A DNA stretch of 64,000 nucleotides, taken from the NCBI RefSeq assembly GCF_006438825.1, contig NZ_RCZP01000001.1, positions 125,056 through 189,055 of the forward strand, read 5' to 3'. A program made the position numbers and the translations under genes. This document shows, piece by piece, positions 46,655-55,228 of this stretch. The notes beneath the pieces are model-generated. The model was not told where the DNA came from and searched no databases. It saw only the letters and a list, made by a program, of their open reading frames with translations. Source of the stretch: Muricoccus nepalensis. Its GTDB lineage: Bacteria; Pseudomonadota; Alphaproteobacteria; Acetobacterales; Acetobacteraceae. Every line of letters begins with the position of its first letter. The stretch's first letter is position 1.

Positions 46655-49600
46655 CTAGAGGCTCATCAGGCTGGCGTTGCCGCCGGCGGCCGCCGTGTTG
46701 GTGCTCGTCGAGCGCTCGGCGGCGAGCATGTCCAGCGGGTAGACCTCGCCGCGCGCGAGGGCCCCGGGCGCGAGGGCCAGGACGGGCCGGATCGGCCCCT
46801 CCATCGCCGCGACCTCGCGGTTAAGGGCCCGCAGGCCCGCCTCCTCGCCCTCGAACAGCACGGCGTCGAAGGAGGTTCCCTCCGGCGCAAGGCGAGCGGC
46901 GACGCCGGCGGGGAGCCCGACCGGCCGCCTCGCCAGCAGGGCGCGGTTGCCCGTGGCGAGGCAGGCCGCGAGCTGCAGGGCCGTGCCCTCCTCCGAGGCG
47001 GCCTCGCAGCGCACCACGCCCCGCGGGTGCAGGGCGTAGCGGTTCACCTCCCCGACCGGCCCCGGCAGGACAATCCCGAGCCCGGCGCGGCCCGCCGAGA
47101 CCTGGCGCGCGCAACGCGCGGCCAGGGCGTCCAGGCCCCGCTCCTGCAGCCAGTCGACGAAGGCGGTGGCCTCCGCCGGGGGCTCGACCGTGGGCAGCGG
47201 CGGATCGGCGGGCGCGGCGGCCAGGAGGCGCCGGAGGTAGAGCGGCCCGCCGGCCTTGGGGCCCGTGCCCGAGAGCCCGTGGCCGCCGAAGGGCTGCACG
47301 CCCACCACGGCGCCGATGAGGTTCCGGTTGACGTAGACGTTCCCCGCCGAGGACAGGCCCACGAGGCGCTCGATCGTCTCGTCGAGGCGGGAGTGCACGC
47401 CGAAGGTCAGGCCGTAGCCGGTGGCGTTGATCGAACGCACCAGCGCCTCGGCGTCCGCGCGGCGGAAGCGCAGGACGTGCAGCACGGGGCCGAAGACCTC
47501 GCGCTCCAGCTCCTCCAGCCCGCCGATCTCGATGATGGTGGGCGCGACGAAGGTGCCGTCGCGGCAGGCCTCCGGCAACGGTGCGGCGTACACCTTCCGC
47601 CCGCGCGCGCGCATCGCCTCGACATGCGCCTCGATGCCGCGCCGCGCCTCCTCGGTGATGACGGGGCCGATGTCGACGGAAAGCCGGTCGGGGTTGCCGA
47701 GGGAGAGCTCCGCCAGCGCGCCGCGGAGCATGGCCAGCACGCGGTCGGCGACCTCCTCCTGCAGGCAGAGCACGCGGAGCGCGGAGCAGCGCTGCCCCGC
47801 GCTGTCGAAGGCGGAGGCGAGGACGTCCGCCACCACCTGCTCGGCGAGGGCGGAGCTGTCGACGACGAGCGCGTTCTGCCCGCCCGTCTCGGCCACCAGC
47901 GGCACGGGCTGCCCGTCCGGGTTCAGGCGGCCGGCGAGCTGGCGCTGGATGAGGCGCGCGACCTCGGTCGAGCCCGTGAACATCACGCCCCGCACGCGCG
48001 CGTCCGCGACGAGCCGCGCGCCGACCGCACCATCCCCGGGCAGGAGCTGCAGCGCGGCGGGCGGCACCCCGGCCTCGCGCAGGAGGCCGGTGGCGAGGGC
48101 CGCGATAAGCGGCGCCTCCTCCGCGGGCTTGGCGAGGACGGGGTTGCCCGCGGCGAGCGCCGCCGCGACCTGGCCGGTGAAGATCGCGAGCGGGAAGTTC
48201 CAGGGCGAGATGCAGGCGACGGGGCCGAGCGGCCGGTGCGCGCCCGCCGCGAGGTCCTGCGCCCCGGCGGCGTAGTAGCGGAGGAAGTCGACGGCCTCGC
48301 GCACCTCCCCGATCGCGTTCGGGATGGACTTGCCGGCCTCGCGGACGATGGGGCCGATCAGCGCGTCCATCCGCGCCTCCATCAGCGCGGCGGCGCGCTC
48401 CAGCATCGCCGCGCGGTCGGCCGGAGGGGTCGCTGCCCAGGAGGCGGACGCCTCCTCCGCCGCGGCGAGGGCGGCCTCCACCGCCGCCGGGGAGGCGTCG
48501 GTGACCTGGCCGACGAGGTCGCGGCGGTCCGCGGGGTTGCGCGCCTCCCGCGCCTCGCCCTCCCTCTCTCCCCCGGCCAGCATCGGCGCCGCGCGCAGCG
48601 GACGCGTGTCCAGCGCGGCGGCGAGGGCCGCGAGGCGGTCCTCGTTCGTCAGGTCGAGGCCCGCGGCGTTCGCGCGCGCGCTCCCGAACAGCGCGCCCGG
48701 CTGCGCGATGCCGTCATGCGGCCGGCCCGGCGGCACGAGGGCTGCGGCCTCGGCCACGGGATCGGCGAGCAGCGCCTCGATCGGCACGGAGAGGTCGTTG
48801 ATGCGGTTCACGAAGGAGGAGTTGGCGCCGTTCTCGAGCAGGCGGCGGACGAGGTAGGCGAGCAGCGTCTCGTGCGTGCCCACGGGCGCGTAGATGCGGC
48901 AGGGGCGGTCGAGGCCCTTCGGCCCCACGACCTCCTCGTAGAGCGGCTCGCCCATGCCGTGCAGGCACTGGAACTCGTACTGGCCCGGCGTGAAATGCGG
49001 CCCGGCCATCTCGTGGATGGCGGCGAGGGTGCGCGCGTTGTGGGTGGCGAATTGCGGGAAGACGGCGTCGGGCGCAGCCAGCAGCCGGCGCGCGCAGGCG
49101 AGGAACGACACGTCCGTGTGGATCTTGCGCGTGAAGACGGGGAAGCCCTCCAGCCCGTCCATCTGCGCGCGCTTGATCTCGCTGTCCCAGTAGGCGCCCT
49201 TCACCAGCCGGACCATCACGCGGCGGCCGGTGCGGCGGGCGAGGTCGACCACGAAATCGATCACGAAGGGCGCGCGGCGCTGGTAGGCCTGGACGACGAA
49301 GCCGATGCCGTCCCAGCCCGCCAGCCGCTCGTCGTGGCAGAGCGCCTCCAGCAGGTCGAGCGAGAGCTCCAGCCGGTCCGCCTCCTCGGCGTCGATGTTG
49401 AGGCCGATGTCGTACCGGCGCGCGCGCAGCGCGAGCCCGGCCAGGCGGGGCAGCAGCTCCGCCATCACGCGGTTGCGCTGGGCGCGGGCGTAGCGGGGGT
49501 GCAGCGCGGAGAGCTTGATCGAGATGCCCGGCCCCTCCTGGATGCCGCGCCCCGCGGCGGCGCGCCCGATGGCGTCGATCGCGCCCTCGTAGTCCCGGAG

Positions 49601-50302
49601 GTAGCGGGCGGCGTCCTCGGCCGTCGTCGCGGCCTCGCCAAGCATGTCGTAGGAGTAGCGGAAGCCCTTCGCCTCCATCGCGCGGCTGTTCGCGAGCGCC
49701 TCCTCGATCGTCTGGCCCGTCACGAAGCGCTCGCCCATCATGCGCATGGCGAGGTCCACGCCGCGGCGGATCACGGGCTCGCCCGCGCGCGCGACGAGCC
49801 GCGTCAGCGCCGCGCCCAGCCCCGCCTCGCCGCCGGTGGAGGCAAGGCGGCCGGTGACGACGAGCCCCCAGGTGGCCGCGTTCACGAAGAGCGAGGGCGA
49901 GTGGCCGAGATGCGCCCGCCAGTCGCCGCCGCCGATCTTGTCGCGGATCAGGGCGTCGCGTGTGGCGTCGTCGGGGATGCGCAGCAGGGCTTCCGCGAGG
50001 CACATCAGCGCGACCCCCTCCTCGCTGGAGAGGGAGAACTCCTGCACCAGCGCCTCCACCCCGCCCGGGCGGCGGCGGCCGCGCAGCGCCGTGACCAGGC
50101 GCCGCGCCAGGGCGACCGCCCGCGCCTCCGCATCGGGCGGCAGGGCCGCGGCCTCGATCAGCGGCGGCAGGCACCGCTCCTCCGGGCGCCGGTAGGCCGC
50201 CGTCACCGCCGCCCGCAGCGGGGATTGCGGCCGGAGGTCGCGGCGGGAGGCCTCGAAGGGGCGCGACGCGGCGACGGGCGCCAGGGTGTCGGAGATGCTC
50301 AA
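46655..50302 (-). CDS. putA: Bifunctional proline dehydrogenase / delta-1-pyrroline-5-carboxylate dehydrogenase
   Basis: A protein of about 1215 residues. The N-terminal proline dehydrogenase barrel has GISIKLSALHPRYARAQ, NIDAEEADRLELSLDLL, VRLVKGAYWDSEIKRAQ and FATHNARTLAAI. The C-terminal aldehyde dehydrogenase has ACISPWNFPLAIFTGQVAAALAAGN, LVAETGGQNALVVDSSALAEQVV and the catalytic Cys in AGQRCSALRVL. The protein ends in the PutA-specific NTAAAGGNASLM. It converts proline to glutamate. No ribbon-helix-helix DNA-binding domain is present, so it does not self-repress as E. coli PutA does. I prefer the TTG at 50302 (AGGAAG Shine-Dalgarno 7 bases upstream). A GTG at 50416 also has a good GGAGG but adds 38 Pro/Arg-rich residues unlike PutA. 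Confidence 0.92.
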   Translation of the reverse strand: MSISDTLAPVAASRPFEASRRDLRPQSPLRAAVTAAYRRPEERCLPPLIEAAALPPDAEARAVALARRLVTALRGRRRPGGVEALVQEFSLSSEEGVALMCLAEALLRIPDDATRDALIRDKIGGGDWRAHLGHSPSLFVNAATWGLVVTGRLASTGGEAGLGAALTRLVARAGEPVIRRGVDLAMRMMGERFVTGQTIEEALANSRAMEAKGFRYSYDMLGEAATTAEDAARYLRDYEGAIDAIGRAAAGRGIQEGPGISIKLSALHPRYARAQRNRVMAELLPRLAGLALRARRYDIGLNIDAEEADRLELSLDLLEALCHDERLAGWDGIGFVVQAYQRRAPFVIDFVVDLARRTGRRVMVRLVKGAYWDSEIKRAQMDGLEGFPVFTRKIHTDVSFLACARRLLAAPDAVFPQFATHNARTLAAIHEMAGPHFTPGQYEFQCLHGMGEPLYEEVVGPKGLDRPCRIYAPVGTHETLLAYLVRRLLENGANSSFVNRINDLSVPIEALLADPVAEAAALVPPGRPHDGIAQPGALFGSARANAAGLDLTNEDRLAALAAALDTRPLRAAPMLAGGEREGEAREARNPADRRDLVGQVTDASPAAVEAALAAAEEASASWAATPPADRAAMLERAAALMEARMDALIGPIVREAGKSIPNAIGEVREAVDFLRYYAAGAQDLAAGAHRPLGPVACISPWNFPLAIFTGQVAAALAAGNPVLAKPAEEAPLIAALATGLLREAGVPPAALQLLPGDGAVGARLVADARVRGVMFTGSTEVARLIQRQLAGRLNPDGQPVPLVAETGGQNALVVDSSALAEQVVADVLASAFDSAGQRCSALRVLCLQEEVADRVLAMLRGALAELSLGNPDRLSVDIGPVITEEARRGIEAHVEAMRARGRKVYAAPLPEACRDGTFVAPTIIEIGGLEELEREVFGPVLHVLRFRRADAEALVRSINATGYGLTFGVHSRLDETIERLVGLSSAGNVYVNRNLIGAVVGVQPFGGHGLSGTGPKAGGPLYLRRLLAAAPADPPLPTVEPPAEATAFVDWLQERGLDALAARCARQVSAGRAGLGIVLPGPVGEVNRYALHPRGVVRCEAASEEGTALQLAACLATGNRALLARRPVGLPAGVAARLAPEGTSFDAVLFEGEEAGLRALNREVAAMEGPIRPVLALAPGALARGEVYPLDMLAAERSTSTNTAAAGGNASLMSL

Positions 50303-50499
50303 GCGGACGCTTCCTCGCTCGCGGGCCGTGCCTCGTCGCGGCCGGGGAAAAGGCACCGCGCTCCCCGCCCGTCCCGGAATATAGGCGCGCGCGCCCGGCG
50401 GGGCACCGTCCGCCACGCTTGACCTCCTCCCGGCACCGACAACCTCTGGCCAGCGCTCGCCGGACCCAGGGCGCGAAGCGCGCGGGGAGCGAGGCAGGC

Positions 50500-51785: not shown

Positions 51786-53057
51786 ATGCTGGACTTCGTT
51801 GAGGCGGCTTCCGCGCGGTTCGCGGCCCTCGAACCGGCGCCGCGCCCGGGCTTCATGTTCGCGACGGGGATCGAGAACAGCGCCCCCACCATCGGGGGCG
51901 GCCGGATCCGGCGCGACCAGCTCGCCGAGTGCGGCCACTACGACCGCTGGCGGGAGGACTTCGCCCTCGTGCGGGAGGTCGGCTGCGGCTACCTCCGCTA
52001 CGGCCCGCAGCTTCACCGCTGCCTCGTGGCGCCCGGCGTCTACGACTTCAGCTTCGCCGACGAGGCCTTCGCCGCCCTTCGCCGCCAGGGCACGGTCCCG
52101 ATCGTGGACCTCTGCCACTTCGGCGTGCCCGACTGGATCGGCGACTTCCAGAACCCGGACTTCCCCGAGATCTTCGCCGACTACTGCGGCGCCTTCGCGC
52201 GCCGCTTCCCCTGGGTGCAGCTCTACACCCCCGTGAACGAGATGTTCATCACGGCCGTCTTCTCCGCGAAGTACGGGTGGTGGAACGAGGAGCGGAAGGA
52301 CGACCGCTCCTACGTCACGGCCATCAAGAACATCGTGCGCGCGAACGTGCTGGCCATGCACGCGATCCTCGAGGTGCGGCCGGACGCGCTCTTCGTGCAG
52401 TCGGAGTCGACCGAGCACTTCCACCCGGAGTGCCCGGCGGCCCTCGCCCACGCGGAGTTCCGCAACGGGGAGCGCTTCCTCACGCTCGACCTCAACTACG
52501 GCCAGCGCGTCTGCAGCGCGATGTACGAGTTCCTGCTCGACAACGGCATGACCCGCGACGAGTACCGCTTCTTCATGACGCAGGACCTTCGCCGCCACTG
52601 CATCATGGGCAACGACTGGTACGCGACCAACGAGCACCTGATCACCGGCGAGGGCACCAGCCGCTGGGCCGGCGAGGTCTTCGGCTACGGCCCGGTCACG
52701 CGCCTCTACCACGACCGCTACCGCCTGCCGGTCATGCACACCGAGACGAACTGCGACGAGGGGCCGAACGGCGACGAGTCCGAGCGCTGGCTGTGGAAGC
52801 AGTGGGCCGGCATCATGCGGCTGCGCCAGGACGGCGTGCCGATCCTCGGCTTCACCTGGTACTCGCTGACGGACCAGGTGGACTGGGACGTCGCACTCCG
52901 CCAGCAGCGCGGGCGGGTGAACCCGCGCGGCCTCTACGACCTCGACCGTCGCCCGCGCGCGGTCGGCCGCGCCTACCAGAAGCTCATCCGCGGCTGGTCC
53001 GAGGTGCTCTCCCGCCAGAGCTCCTGCCTCCACCCGGTGCTCGCCTCCATCGCCTGA
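51786..53057 (+). CDS. Family 1 glycoside hydrolase (beta-glycosidase type)
   Basis: A 423-residue protein. The acid/base region is LYTPVNEMF (Glu152, aligned with the usual TxNEP) and the nucleophile region is MHTETNCDEG (Glu320, aligned with TENG). A GYLRYGPQLHRCLVAPGVYDFSFADEAF start and FTWYSLTDQVDWDVAL near residue 360 are family 1 features. Both motifs deviate from the classic ones, so the sugar specificity is uncertain; members of this branch are often annotated as beta-glucosidase or sugar-utilising hydrolases. No signal peptide is seen, so it is probably cytoplasmic. No sugar transporter lies nearby. Confidence 0.8.
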   Translation: MLDFVEAASARFAALEPAPRPGFMFATGIENSAPTIGGGRIRRDQLAECGHYDRWREDFALVREVGCGYLRYGPQLHRCLVAPGVYDFSFADEAFAALRRQGTVPIVDLCHFGVPDWIGDFQNPDFPEIFADYCGAFARRFPWVQLYTPVNEMFITAVFSAKYGWWNEERKDDRSYVTAIKNIVRANVLAMHAILEVRPDALFVQSESTEHFHPECPAALAHAEFRNGERFLTLDLNYGQRVCSAMYEFLLDNGMTRDEYRFFMTQDLRRHCIMGNDWYATNEHLITGEGTSRWAGEVFGYGPVTRLYHDRYRLPVMHTETNCDEGPNGDESERWLWKQWAGIMRLRQDGVPILGFTWYSLTDQVDWDVALRQQRGRVNPRGLYDLDRRPRAVGRAYQKLIRGWSEVLSRQSSCLHPVLASIA

Positions 53058-53088
53058 GCGGGCCGTCGCGCGGGGTCGCCGCCGCCGC

Positions 53089-53106
53089 CGGGGGAAAGTG
53101 CCCCCG
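53089..53106 (+). terminator. Possible terminator of the GH1 gene
   Basis: CGGGGG (53089-53094) and CCCCCG (53101-53106) enclose a 6-base loop (AAAGTG), giving a short GC stem 31 bp after the stop codon. There is no T tract, so the activity is uncertain. It sits immediately upstream of the EcfG-type promoter. Confidence 0.3.
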
Positions 53107-53110
53107 CCGG

Positions 53111-53135
53111 GGAACGACGGGGGCGCCGCCACGTT
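53111..53135 (+). promoter_or_regulatory. EcfG-type (general stress response) promoter
   Basis: GGAAC (53111-53115), a 16-bp spacer and CGTT (53132-53135) match exactly the alphaproteobacterial EcfG/SigT consensus GGAAC-N16/17-CGTT. The expected start is about 53145, and a GGAGG Shine-Dalgarno (53149-53153) precedes the ATG at 53162. EcfG promoters depend on the PhyR-NepR partner switch, none of which is encoded in this window. Confidence 0.7.
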
Positions 53136-53161
53136 CTGCCGGGACAGTGGAGGACACCCTC

Positions 53162-53791
53162 ATGGCCCCGATTTCCGAGCAGCGCCTCTTCGACGCCCTC
53201 GCCACCATCACCCACTCCTTCGCCGACGGCGGCGTGCCGGGCGTGGAGGGGCCGGGCGCCGGCGCGGCGACGGAGAGCGGCGAGGGTCCCTCCCCCGCCA
53301 TCGAGGCGCTCAGCCCCCACACGCGCGAGGTCCTGGGAGAGGCCGCCCTGGCCGTCGCCTACGGCGCCTTCGCCTCCCGGGGCGGCGAGGGCGGGGCGAT
53401 GCACACGCTCATCGCGGCGATGGGGCTGATGGCGCACCTCTCGGGCGAGGAGCCCGACCCGCCCGCGGAGATCCTGGCCATCGGCGCGCAGGACGGCCGC
53501 GTGGAGGAGGAGATCGACCGCGCCGGAGACGCCGTGGACGAGGAGTTCGGCCGCGACGCCTCGCCGGAGGCTCTCGTGGCCGCGCTGGAGGCTCGGATCG
53601 TCGGGACCGCCATCACGCTTGCGGGCTGCACGCTGCCCGAGGGGGCAGGCGGCCAGGCGGCGGTCCGCCTGCGGGCGGCGCGCGCCCTGGCGCGGCTCTC
53701 GGCGGGGCTGATGGCGATGAACGTCGCCGGCGGCGTGGGGGCGGCGAGGCCCGCTTCCGATGCGGCGCCGCAGCCGGCCGAGGCGCGGTAG
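53162..53791 (+). CDS. Hypothetical protein under an EcfG-type promoter
   Basis: A 209-residue, acidic, mostly helical protein. A Gly/Pro-rich linker covers residues 23-45 (GGVPGVEGPGAGAATESGEG). Helical stretches follow (EVLGEAALAVAYGAFASRG; TLIAAMGLMAHLSGEEPD; EEEIDRAGDAVDEEFGRD; VGTAITLAG), and the C-terminal tail is Ala/Pro-rich. One cysteine is visible (AGCTLPEG). I do not recognise a family or a catalytic motif. The exact stress promoter and a well-placed ribosome-binding site make it a real gene and probably a stress protein. It converges with the CsbD gene. Confidence 0.8.
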   Translation: MAPISEQRLFDALATITHSFADGGVPGVEGPGAGAATESGEGPSPAIEALSPHTREVLGEAALAVAYGAFASRGGEGGAMHTLIAAMGLMAHLSGEEPDPPAEILAIGAQDGRVEEEIDRAGDAVDEEFGRDASPEALVAALEARIVGTAITLAGCTLPEGAGGQAAVRLRAARALARLSAGLMAMNVAGGVGAARPASDAAPQPAEAR

Positions 53792-53810
53792 ACCGTACCG
53801 CCGCAACGAG

Positions 53811-53834
53811 CCGGCGGGGACTTAGCCCCGCCGG
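53811..53834 (+). terminator. Terminator hairpin of the 53162-53791 gene
   Basis: A perfect 9-bp stem (CCGGCGGGG, 53811-53819, with 53826-53834) and a 6-base loop (ACTTAG), starting 19 bp after the stop codon. Few T residues follow, as is usual in GC-rich genomes. Confidence 0.6.
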
Positions 53835-53877
53835 TCAGGAGTCTCCGCGCCGGGCGCGAAGACCGGTGACACGAGAA

Positions 53878-53902
53878 GGCGGCGGACCGGAAGCCCGCCG
53901 CC
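53878..53902 (-). terminator. Terminator hairpin of the csbD-like gene
   Basis: A perfect 8-bp stem (53878-53885 with 53895-53902; GGCGGCGG and its complement) around a 9-base loop, starting 8 bp past the stop of the minus-strand gene. On that strand the stem is followed by TTCTCGTGTC. It stands back to back with the hairpin at 53811-53834, insulating two convergent genes. Confidence 0.55.
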
Positions 53903-53910
53903 CGTCGCCG

Positions 53911-54096
53911 TCAGCGCTTGTCGGCCGCGTCGCGGAGGGTGTCCTTGGCGCCGCCCATGGCGTTCTCGCCGGTGCCCTTCGCCTTGTCCATCTTGCCCTC
54001 GGCCTGCATCTTCGAGTCGCCTGTGGCCGAGCCGACAGCGTCCTTTACAGCGCCCTTGGCCTTGTCGACCGCGCCGGAAATCCGATCCTTGTCCAT
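53911..54096 (-). CDS. CsbD-family stress protein
   Basis: A 61-residue, charged, low-complexity helical protein: DRISGAVDKAKGAVKDAVGSATGDSKMQAEGKMDKAKG is the CsbD signature. CsbD and its relatives are stress-induced in many bacteria, with unknown molecular activity. In alphaproteobacteria they are commonly in the EcfG regulon, and here an EcfG-type promoter lies 43 bp upstream of the ATG. The protein is too short to carry a known enzymatic domain. Confidence 0.87.
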   Translation of the reverse strand: MDKDRISGAVDKAKGAVKDAVGSATGDSKMQAEGKMDKAKGTGENAMGGAKDTLRDAADKR

Positions 54097-54138
54097 CTCG
54101 CGTCCCCTTGCTGCCCGTTGATTCGGGTCATGGGATAG

Positions 54139-54164
54139 AACGCCCCCCTCTTCCCGCGGTTTCC
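54139..54164 (-). promoter_or_regulatory. EcfG-type promoter for the csbD-like gene
   Basis: On the minus strand GGAAA (54164-54160), a 17-bp spacer and CGTT (54142-54139) match the EcfG/SigT consensus except for the last base of the -35. The spacing to the ATG (about 43 bp from the -10) is reasonable. It is weaker than the exact match at 53111-53135, but two such sites flanking convergent genes are unlikely to be chance. Confidence 0.55.
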
Positions 54165-54277
54165 CCGGCCCCCCGGCCCGGCTTGCGCACCGGCCCCTCC
54201 TGCCCGGATGCTGGCGCCCGTCCCTCCCGCGCCCCTGGGTCCCGCCACCGCGCGGCGGGAGGGAGGAGGACGCCGCC

Positions 54278-55228
54278 ATGCTTCGCCGAGCCCTGATCGC
54301 GGCCGCCGCGCTGCCCCTCGCCCGGCCCTCGGTGGCGGCCGAGGCCTTGCCCGTGCTGAACGTCCTCGTCCCCGCGGCGCCCGGGGGCGGGTGGGACGGG
54401 CTCGGGCGGGCGGTCGAGCGCGCGGCGGTCGCGGCCGGGCTGGTTGGCCGCTTCGCCTTCGAGAACGTGCCGGGCGGCTCCGGCACGGTGGGGCTCGCGC
54501 GCTTCGTCAACCAGCGGCGCGGCCGGGCGGAGAGCCTTCTCGTCGCCGGCGCGAGCGTCGTCGGCGCGGCCATCGCCAGCCGCTCGCCGGTCAGCCTCAA
54601 GGACGTCGTGCCGGTCGCGCGCCTGACCGAGGAGGCGGGCGTCATCGTCGTGCCCGCCGGAAGCGAGTACCGCAGCATCGGCCAGCTCGCCGAGGCGCTG
54701 CGGGCGGAGCCGCGGGGCATCCCTATCGCCGGGGCGGGCGGCGGGTCGGTCGACCACGTCATCCTCTGCCTCCTGCTGAAGGCGCTCGGCCGCCGGCCGC
54801 TCGAGGCGCAGCTCGTCGCCTTCCCGGGCGGCGGCGCGACGCAGGCGGCGGTGATCGGCGGGCAGGTGAAGGCCGCGGTGGCGGGCTGGGGCGAGTTCGC
54901 CGAGCAGGTCGCCTCCGGCCGCGTCCGCGCGCTGGCGACGAGCGGCGAGCGGCGCCTGCACCCGGAGGTCCCGACGCTCCGGGAGAGCGGCTACGACGTC
55001 GCCGCGACGAACTGGCGCGGCCTCTTCGCGGCGCCCGGCGTGAGCGAGGCCGCGCGGCGGGCGCTGGTGGACCTCGCCACCGCCCTGCACGGCACCCGCG
55101 CCTGGCAGGAGACGCTCGCGGCCCGCGGCTGGGACGACGCCTTCCTCGCCGGCCCCGACTTCGCGGCCTTCGTCGCCCGCGACCAGGCGGACACCGAGGG
55201 CGTGCTGCGGGAGCTCGGCCTCGCCTGA
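54278..55228 (+). CDS. TctC/Bug-family periplasmic binding protein
   Basis: A 316-residue protein with an N-terminal signal (RRALIAAAALPLARPSVAA). The mature part has the Bug fold landmarks: LVPAAPGGGWDGLGRAVE, VENVPG-type FENVPGGSGTVGLARF, and GQVKAAVAGWGEFAEQVASGRVRALATSGERRLHPEVPTL. These proteins bind small carboxylates for tripartite tricarboxylate transporters. No tctA or tctB is nearby, so it must work with distant membrane partners or be an orphan sensor. GGGAGGAGG precedes the ATG. Confidence 0.87.
   Translation: MLRRALIAAAALPLARPSVAAEALPVLNVLVPAAPGGGWDGLGRAVERAAVAAGLVGRFAFENVPGGSGTVGLARFVNQRRGRAESLLVAGASVVGAAIASRSPVSLKDVVPVARLTEEAGVIVVPAGSEYRSIGQLAEALRAEPRGIPIAGAGGGSVDHVILCLLLKALGRRPLEAQLVAFPGGGATQAAVIGGQVKAAVAGWGEFAEQVASGRVRALATSGERRLHPEVPTLRESGYDVAATNWRGLFAAPGVSEAARRALVDLATALHGTRAWQETLAARGWDDAFLAGPDFAAFVARDQADTEGVLRELGLA

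Follow-up and report, generated by a model that had tools for sequence, protein, structure and literature searches.

A likely new member of the EcfG general stress regulon in Muricoccus nepalensis

In Muricoccus nepalensis, a 209-aa acidic protein, referred to here as P0001, is likely a new member of the known EcfG regulon, and we consider it probable, judging from sequence, that its gene and the neighboring csbD gene belong to the PhyR-NepR-EcfG general stress response (GSR) and are transcribed as separate units. This membership, proposed in a preliminary description of the 64-kb window (the whole stretch of DNA analyzed, to which positions refer), is supported because the genome carries a GSR locus with phyR, nepR and two probable ecfG genes, because a box recognized by a matrix built from other genes lies at promoter distance from P0001 and precedes many of its orthologues with little change in distance or spacing, and because csbD is a known kind of EcfG target. 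The features of the locus are listed below.

53111-53115, plus strand: putative -35 element GGAAC of the P0001 promoter, by direct reading; TGAAC at the same place in loci L068 and L069
53132-53135, plus strand: putative -10 element CGTT of the P0001 promoter, spacer N16; CGTT kept in L068-L072
53162-53791, stop codon included, plus strand: P0001, 209-aa acidic protein, from the ORF, homologues, dN/dS and an all-helical model
53810-53835, no strand assigned: first hairpin, 10-bp stem (53810-53819/53826-53835), no T-run
53877-53903, no strand assigned: second hairpin, 12-bp stem (53877-53888/53892-53903), minus-strand reading, no T-run
53911-54096, stop codon included, minus strand: csbD, 61 aa, PF05532 match
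54139-54142, minus strand: putative -10 element CGTT of the csbD promoter, by direct reading and matrix
54159-54163, minus strand: putative -35 element GAAAC of the csbD promoter, spacer N16; box score 10.81, the best in the window

The GGAAC-N16-CGTT box described ahead of a 209-residue ORF is present with its spacer and its gene, and the two genes are convergent, P0001 on the plus strand and csbD on the minus strand. The P0001 ATG at 53162, preceded by GGAGG, is 51 nt from the first base of GGAAC, and the whole box scores 9.30 with a matrix trained on csbD upstreams; the csbD start is 67 nt from its own box. With an E value of 1.9e-16 and 60.1 bits against PF05532 (cut-off 40), CsbD is a plain member of its family. 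The promoter proposed for this gene was borne out as a box in front of a CsbD gene, but not in its original register: GGAAA (54164-54160)-N17-CGTT and GAAAC-N16-CGTT are one box in registers one base apart, and GAAAC-N16 fits the matrix of the clade better.

The excess of these boxes over chance lies in their placement and conservation. Exact GGAAC-N16/17-CGTT occurs 58 times genome-wide, compared with 62 times for the reversed pattern used as a control; mere presence of the box is therefore not significant. When both strands of the window were scanned with the trained matrix, the csbD and P0001 boxes gave the top two scores and the third was 8.38; Markov-1 sequence would yield 1.1 matches of at least 9.29 per window, and one such match occurs in the reversed window. 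The third-best box, GGAAC-N17-TGTT at 46879 on the minus strand, is inside an ORF (46655-50416) that is putA-like by eye and is probably a chance match.

The box of the clade was derived from csbD genes of related genomes, for which we surveyed 30 genomes, 26 with P0001 and 4 of the same genus without it; five further P0001 genomes (G177, G186, G209, G245 and G287) were outside this survey. All 30 contain csbD. Upstream DNA of 75 csbD genes, from about 100 listed and including those adjoining P0001, yielded 73 distinct upstreams, and the best box, NNAAC-N16/17-NGTT, occurred in 64 of the 73, with GCAAC (25) and GGAAC (16) at -35 and CGTT (49) at -10; in 67 of the 73, the box was 50-110 nt from the start. 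Scores of 8 or 9 out of 9 were reached by 42/75 upstreams, whereas shuffles would give 2.6. The clade's box is thus NNAAC-N16/17-CGTT, most commonly with GCAAC at -35, and it can serve to search this group for further stress genes. The csbD orthologues in L068 and L069 have GCAAC-N17-CGTT (score 12.51). According to the available part of one report, csbD and ecnAB are direct EcfG targets, and the commonest two -35 elements of EcfG promoters are GGAAC and GCAAC, with an almost invariant AAC and a flexible -10 element (PMC7083833); GCAAC boxes are also found among EcfG-dependent genes in the part available of another (PMC6599016). On these two sources, GCAAC is an ordinary element for EcfG.

To score the P0001 orthologues, we built a matrix from 81 csbD and csbD-like upstreams, excluding those adjoining P0001. 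The test set comprised 32 upstreams from 31 genomes, G298 contributing two; L099, a second and broken copy in G275, and L033, judged to be the same locus as L074, were dropped. Under dinucleotide shuffling, 18/32 upstreams reached p<0.05 (Fisher 1e-12, which is not a true probability, as the rows are related). A score of at least 6 at 45-70 nt was found before 13/32 P0001 copies versus 4/196 other genes of the same loci, a comparison that can favor P0001, since each control gene was taken to begin at its first start codon by a mechanical rule that can depress the control count at this distance; within 120 nt, the figures are 15/32 and 11/196. Three of the five controls scoring at least 8 are stress-like neighbors of P0001, namely a 193/182-aa ORF (twice) and the small ORF of L076. 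Conservation of the promoter in relatives, which had been put forward as a check, accordingly holds for the box and not for its letters: GGAAC precedes P0001 in this genome only, and 9/32 copies have no assigned box. Relatives have TGAAC, TCAAC, GCAAC or GCATC, mostly with N16, and the variants, listed here by locus, track the protein tree.

TGAAC: L068, L069
TCAAC: L070 (score 5.94), L071
TCGAC, by eye and below threshold: L072
GCAAC-N16-GGTT: L073, L083, L087, L088
GCATC-N16-CGTT: L079, L082, L086, L094
CCAAC: L091
Box before a small upstream ORF, 279-301 nt ahead of P0001: L074, L076, L077 (score 9.65)
Weak box only: L084, L089, L090
Box at about 100 nt only: L092, L095
None assigned: L075, L078, L080, L081, L085, L093, L096, L097, L098

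Among the last group, L081 and L096 have matches 180 and 153 nt out. The strict pattern GGAAN-N15-18-NGTT was absent from all 29 homologous loci searched. The N16 spacing and the distance recur across five genera (g1, g24, g36, g95 and, weakly, g44). Leader identity between the window and L068 is 0.80 over positions -1 to -55 and falls to 0.46 and 0.37 in the next two blocks, so the conserved leader starts at the box.

The genome also encodes the expected regulators. Its GSR locus, L161 on contig C82, contains phyR, a csbD-like gene, two ECF genes, nepR and a HisKA_2/HWE kinase gene; PhyR scores 256.4 against the cut-off of 240 of NCBIfam NF006623, NepR is above its cut-off, and the csbD-like product, with 29.5 bits against PF05532, is below the cut-off of 40. 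The two ECF genes, which are consecutive between phyR and nepR (L161:4516-5931) and are also found in relatives, are probably two EcfG paralogues; we take them as EcfG because they are beside nepR and phyR and both match PhyR_sigma2. PhyR is present in 18/18 genomes searched and NepR in 27/30, and the three that lack a NepR match (G271, G248 and G278) all have PhyR. A csbD-like gene was found beside phyR in 11/21 GSR loci, and GCAAC-N16/17-CGTT precedes it in 11/11. No NNAAC-N16/17-NGTT was found before phyR, ecfG1 or ecfG2-nepR in 21 loci each, ecfG1 starts being badly set in several. Inspection by eye of the DNA preceding ecfG2-nepR, in L161 (5150-5285) and in relatives, shows a conserved G[TC]AAC-N17-CATT, possibly an autoregulatory box with CATT as its -10 element.

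The PhyR-NepR-EcfG switch is established in other alphaproteobacteria. Were it to operate here in the same manner, the HisKA_2/HWE kinase would phosphorylate PhyR upon stress, phosphorylated PhyR would remove NepR from EcfG, and RNA polymerase with EcfG would initiate at both boxes, so that csbD would be transcribed leftward and P0001 rightward, with transcripts converging on the two hairpins. That EcfG is the sigma factor using both boxes, and that stress induces the genes, we infer from sequence. The type of box, its spacing and its distance from the start are as in the EcfG regulon, as are the presence of csbD and of the regulators; this clade differs in favoring GCAAC, and the P0001 -35 element varies more (GGAAC, TGAAC, TCAAC, GCAAC, GCATC). 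Among the matches listed, no published EcfG regulon for Roseomonas or Acetobacteraceae was found, which is not proof that none exists.

A different ECF sigma factor, one that recognizes an AAC-type -35 element, could serve these boxes in place of EcfG. The AAC triplet is, in the available part of PMC7083833, nearly invariant for ECF factors generally, the restriction of GGAAC before P0001 to this genome would suit such a factor, and the box rule failed upstream of phyR and ecfG. We nevertheless regard this explanation as unlikely, for the matrix derives from csbD genes, a known kind of EcfG target, the csbD-like gene has the box in every locus where it was found beside phyR, and PhyR was present in every genome searched. 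A chance match at the P0001 box, with the gene served by another promoter, would be consistent with the genome-wide counts, with the number of matches expected per window, with the failure of relatives to keep GGAAC and with the unboxed copies. This reading is improbable, given the excess of boxed P0001 copies over control genes, the recurrence of spacing and distance in several genera and a conserved leader that begins at the box itself.

Membership of both genes in the EcfG regulon as separate units is also to be weighed against the idea that P0001 and CsbD form a two-gene functional module instead of merely being adjoining, independent members. The convergent pair with both boxes is common to this genome and its two nearest relatives, G302 and G299, only; of the 26 P0001 genomes in which csbD was sought, the remaining 23 have, by our reading, no csbD match closer than 30 kb to P0001 on its contig, although several of these contigs are short or break off close to the gene. 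The neighbors of P0001 vary between loci, and csbD is found in all genomes surveyed, whereas P0001 is patchy; a module is therefore very improbable. The "small stress island" of the preliminary description stands insofar as both genes are boxed and convergent here, but beyond this genome the pair is limited to those two relatives, where a third boxed ORF separates its members.

That third ORF, of 193/182 aa (L068:6374-6955, plus strand; L069:5243-5791, minus strand), lies between P0001 and csbD with its own GCAAC-N17-AGTT box (scores 10.66 and 9.94); the ORF is missing from the window and has no match in Pfam (one copy searched) or NCBIfam (both copies). Directly ahead of P0001 in L076 (6473-6691, minus strand), and in the corresponding position in L074 and L077, is a small lipoprotein-like ORF with a GAAAC-N17-GGTT box, which suggests that the two genes form an operon in these loci. 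By eye, this ORF is entericidin-like, and it recalls ecnAB, which in Sphingopyxis granuli is targeted directly by EcfG according to the available part of PMC7083833; the likeness is incomplete, as the L076 copy has no Pfam or NCBIfam match and no such ORF is found in the window. The neighbors of P0001 otherwise vary and include, among those scanned, BrkB/YihY, YidB and a short-chain dehydrogenase; a neighbor common to all P0001 loci was considered and rejected, as the neighbors differ between loci. Transposases were noted by eye near P0001 in L072, L096 and L098. L096, L097 and L098, together with L099, form a divergent P0001 clade, in part on short contigs beside transposase-like ORFs.

Between the stop codons of P0001 and csbD, two stems are present where "two back-to-back terminator hairpins" had been described, but their status as terminators did not hold: neither has a T-run, and no terminator-like site was found in 52400-55000. 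The second hairpin alone is clearly better than shuffles (z -2.4 on the plus and -2.8 on the minus strand; -1.5 and -0.3 for the first). The hairpins may protect or end the mRNAs, although they are not textbook terminators.

P0001 had been called unrecognised, and it is: searches against Pfam, NCBIfam, PHROGs and PADLOC returned no family at E<=1, and the 32 members searched against Pfam gave five families, each for one member, the best being DUF998 at E 0.013. Many EcfG-regulon members elsewhere are also of unknown function, as far as the available part of PMC7083833 goes, and the placement of an annotation-free family under a probable regulator means that defined stresses can be used to look for its role. 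The AlphaFold model consists of helices only (pLDDT 74, pTM 0.59); this model gave no Foldseek hit in the PDB at E<=0.001 and, in a second fold comparison, a best Z of 5.1, which is middling; no PDB chain matched by sequence. An internal duplication suspected by eye was rejected after hhalign of the halves (probability 0.6%, one column). No relatives were confirmed in viral contigs, and none were found in PLSDB.

P0001 is carried by 25/299 genomes and 9/102 genera of the family, and by 11/15 same-genus genomes; a match in G134 (E 4e-6; L100), a MarR/GNAT-like protein by eye, was dropped, reducing the counts from 26 genomes and 10 genera. With profile A2, it was found in 29/395 genomes of the order, all in one family, f1 in our scheme (NCBI places Roseomonas populi CN29, L033, in Roseomonadaceae and Sabulicella rubraurantiaca, L032, in Acetobacteraceae, both Acetobacterales; both count as f1 here), and in 1/385 genomes drawn across the class, which was its own genome. 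The 32 copies have a pI of 4.05-4.60, the window copy contains zero lysine, C156 is invariant in the 32-row alignment, and dN/dS is 0.15-0.26 in six homologue pairs. P0001 is most likely a soluble cytosolic helical protein; as a guess from this composition and a middling model, it might act by binding a partner or itself during stress. More speculatively, it might constitute its own protein family, confined to one bacterial family, whose helical fold could be undescribed, and act as a dedicated stress effector that retained an EcfG promoter of its own through changes in its surroundings, in several lineages beside other boxed genes (csbD, the entericidin-like ORF and the 193-aa orphan). Two genomes have more than one copy: G298 has two, and the second copy in G275 is broken.
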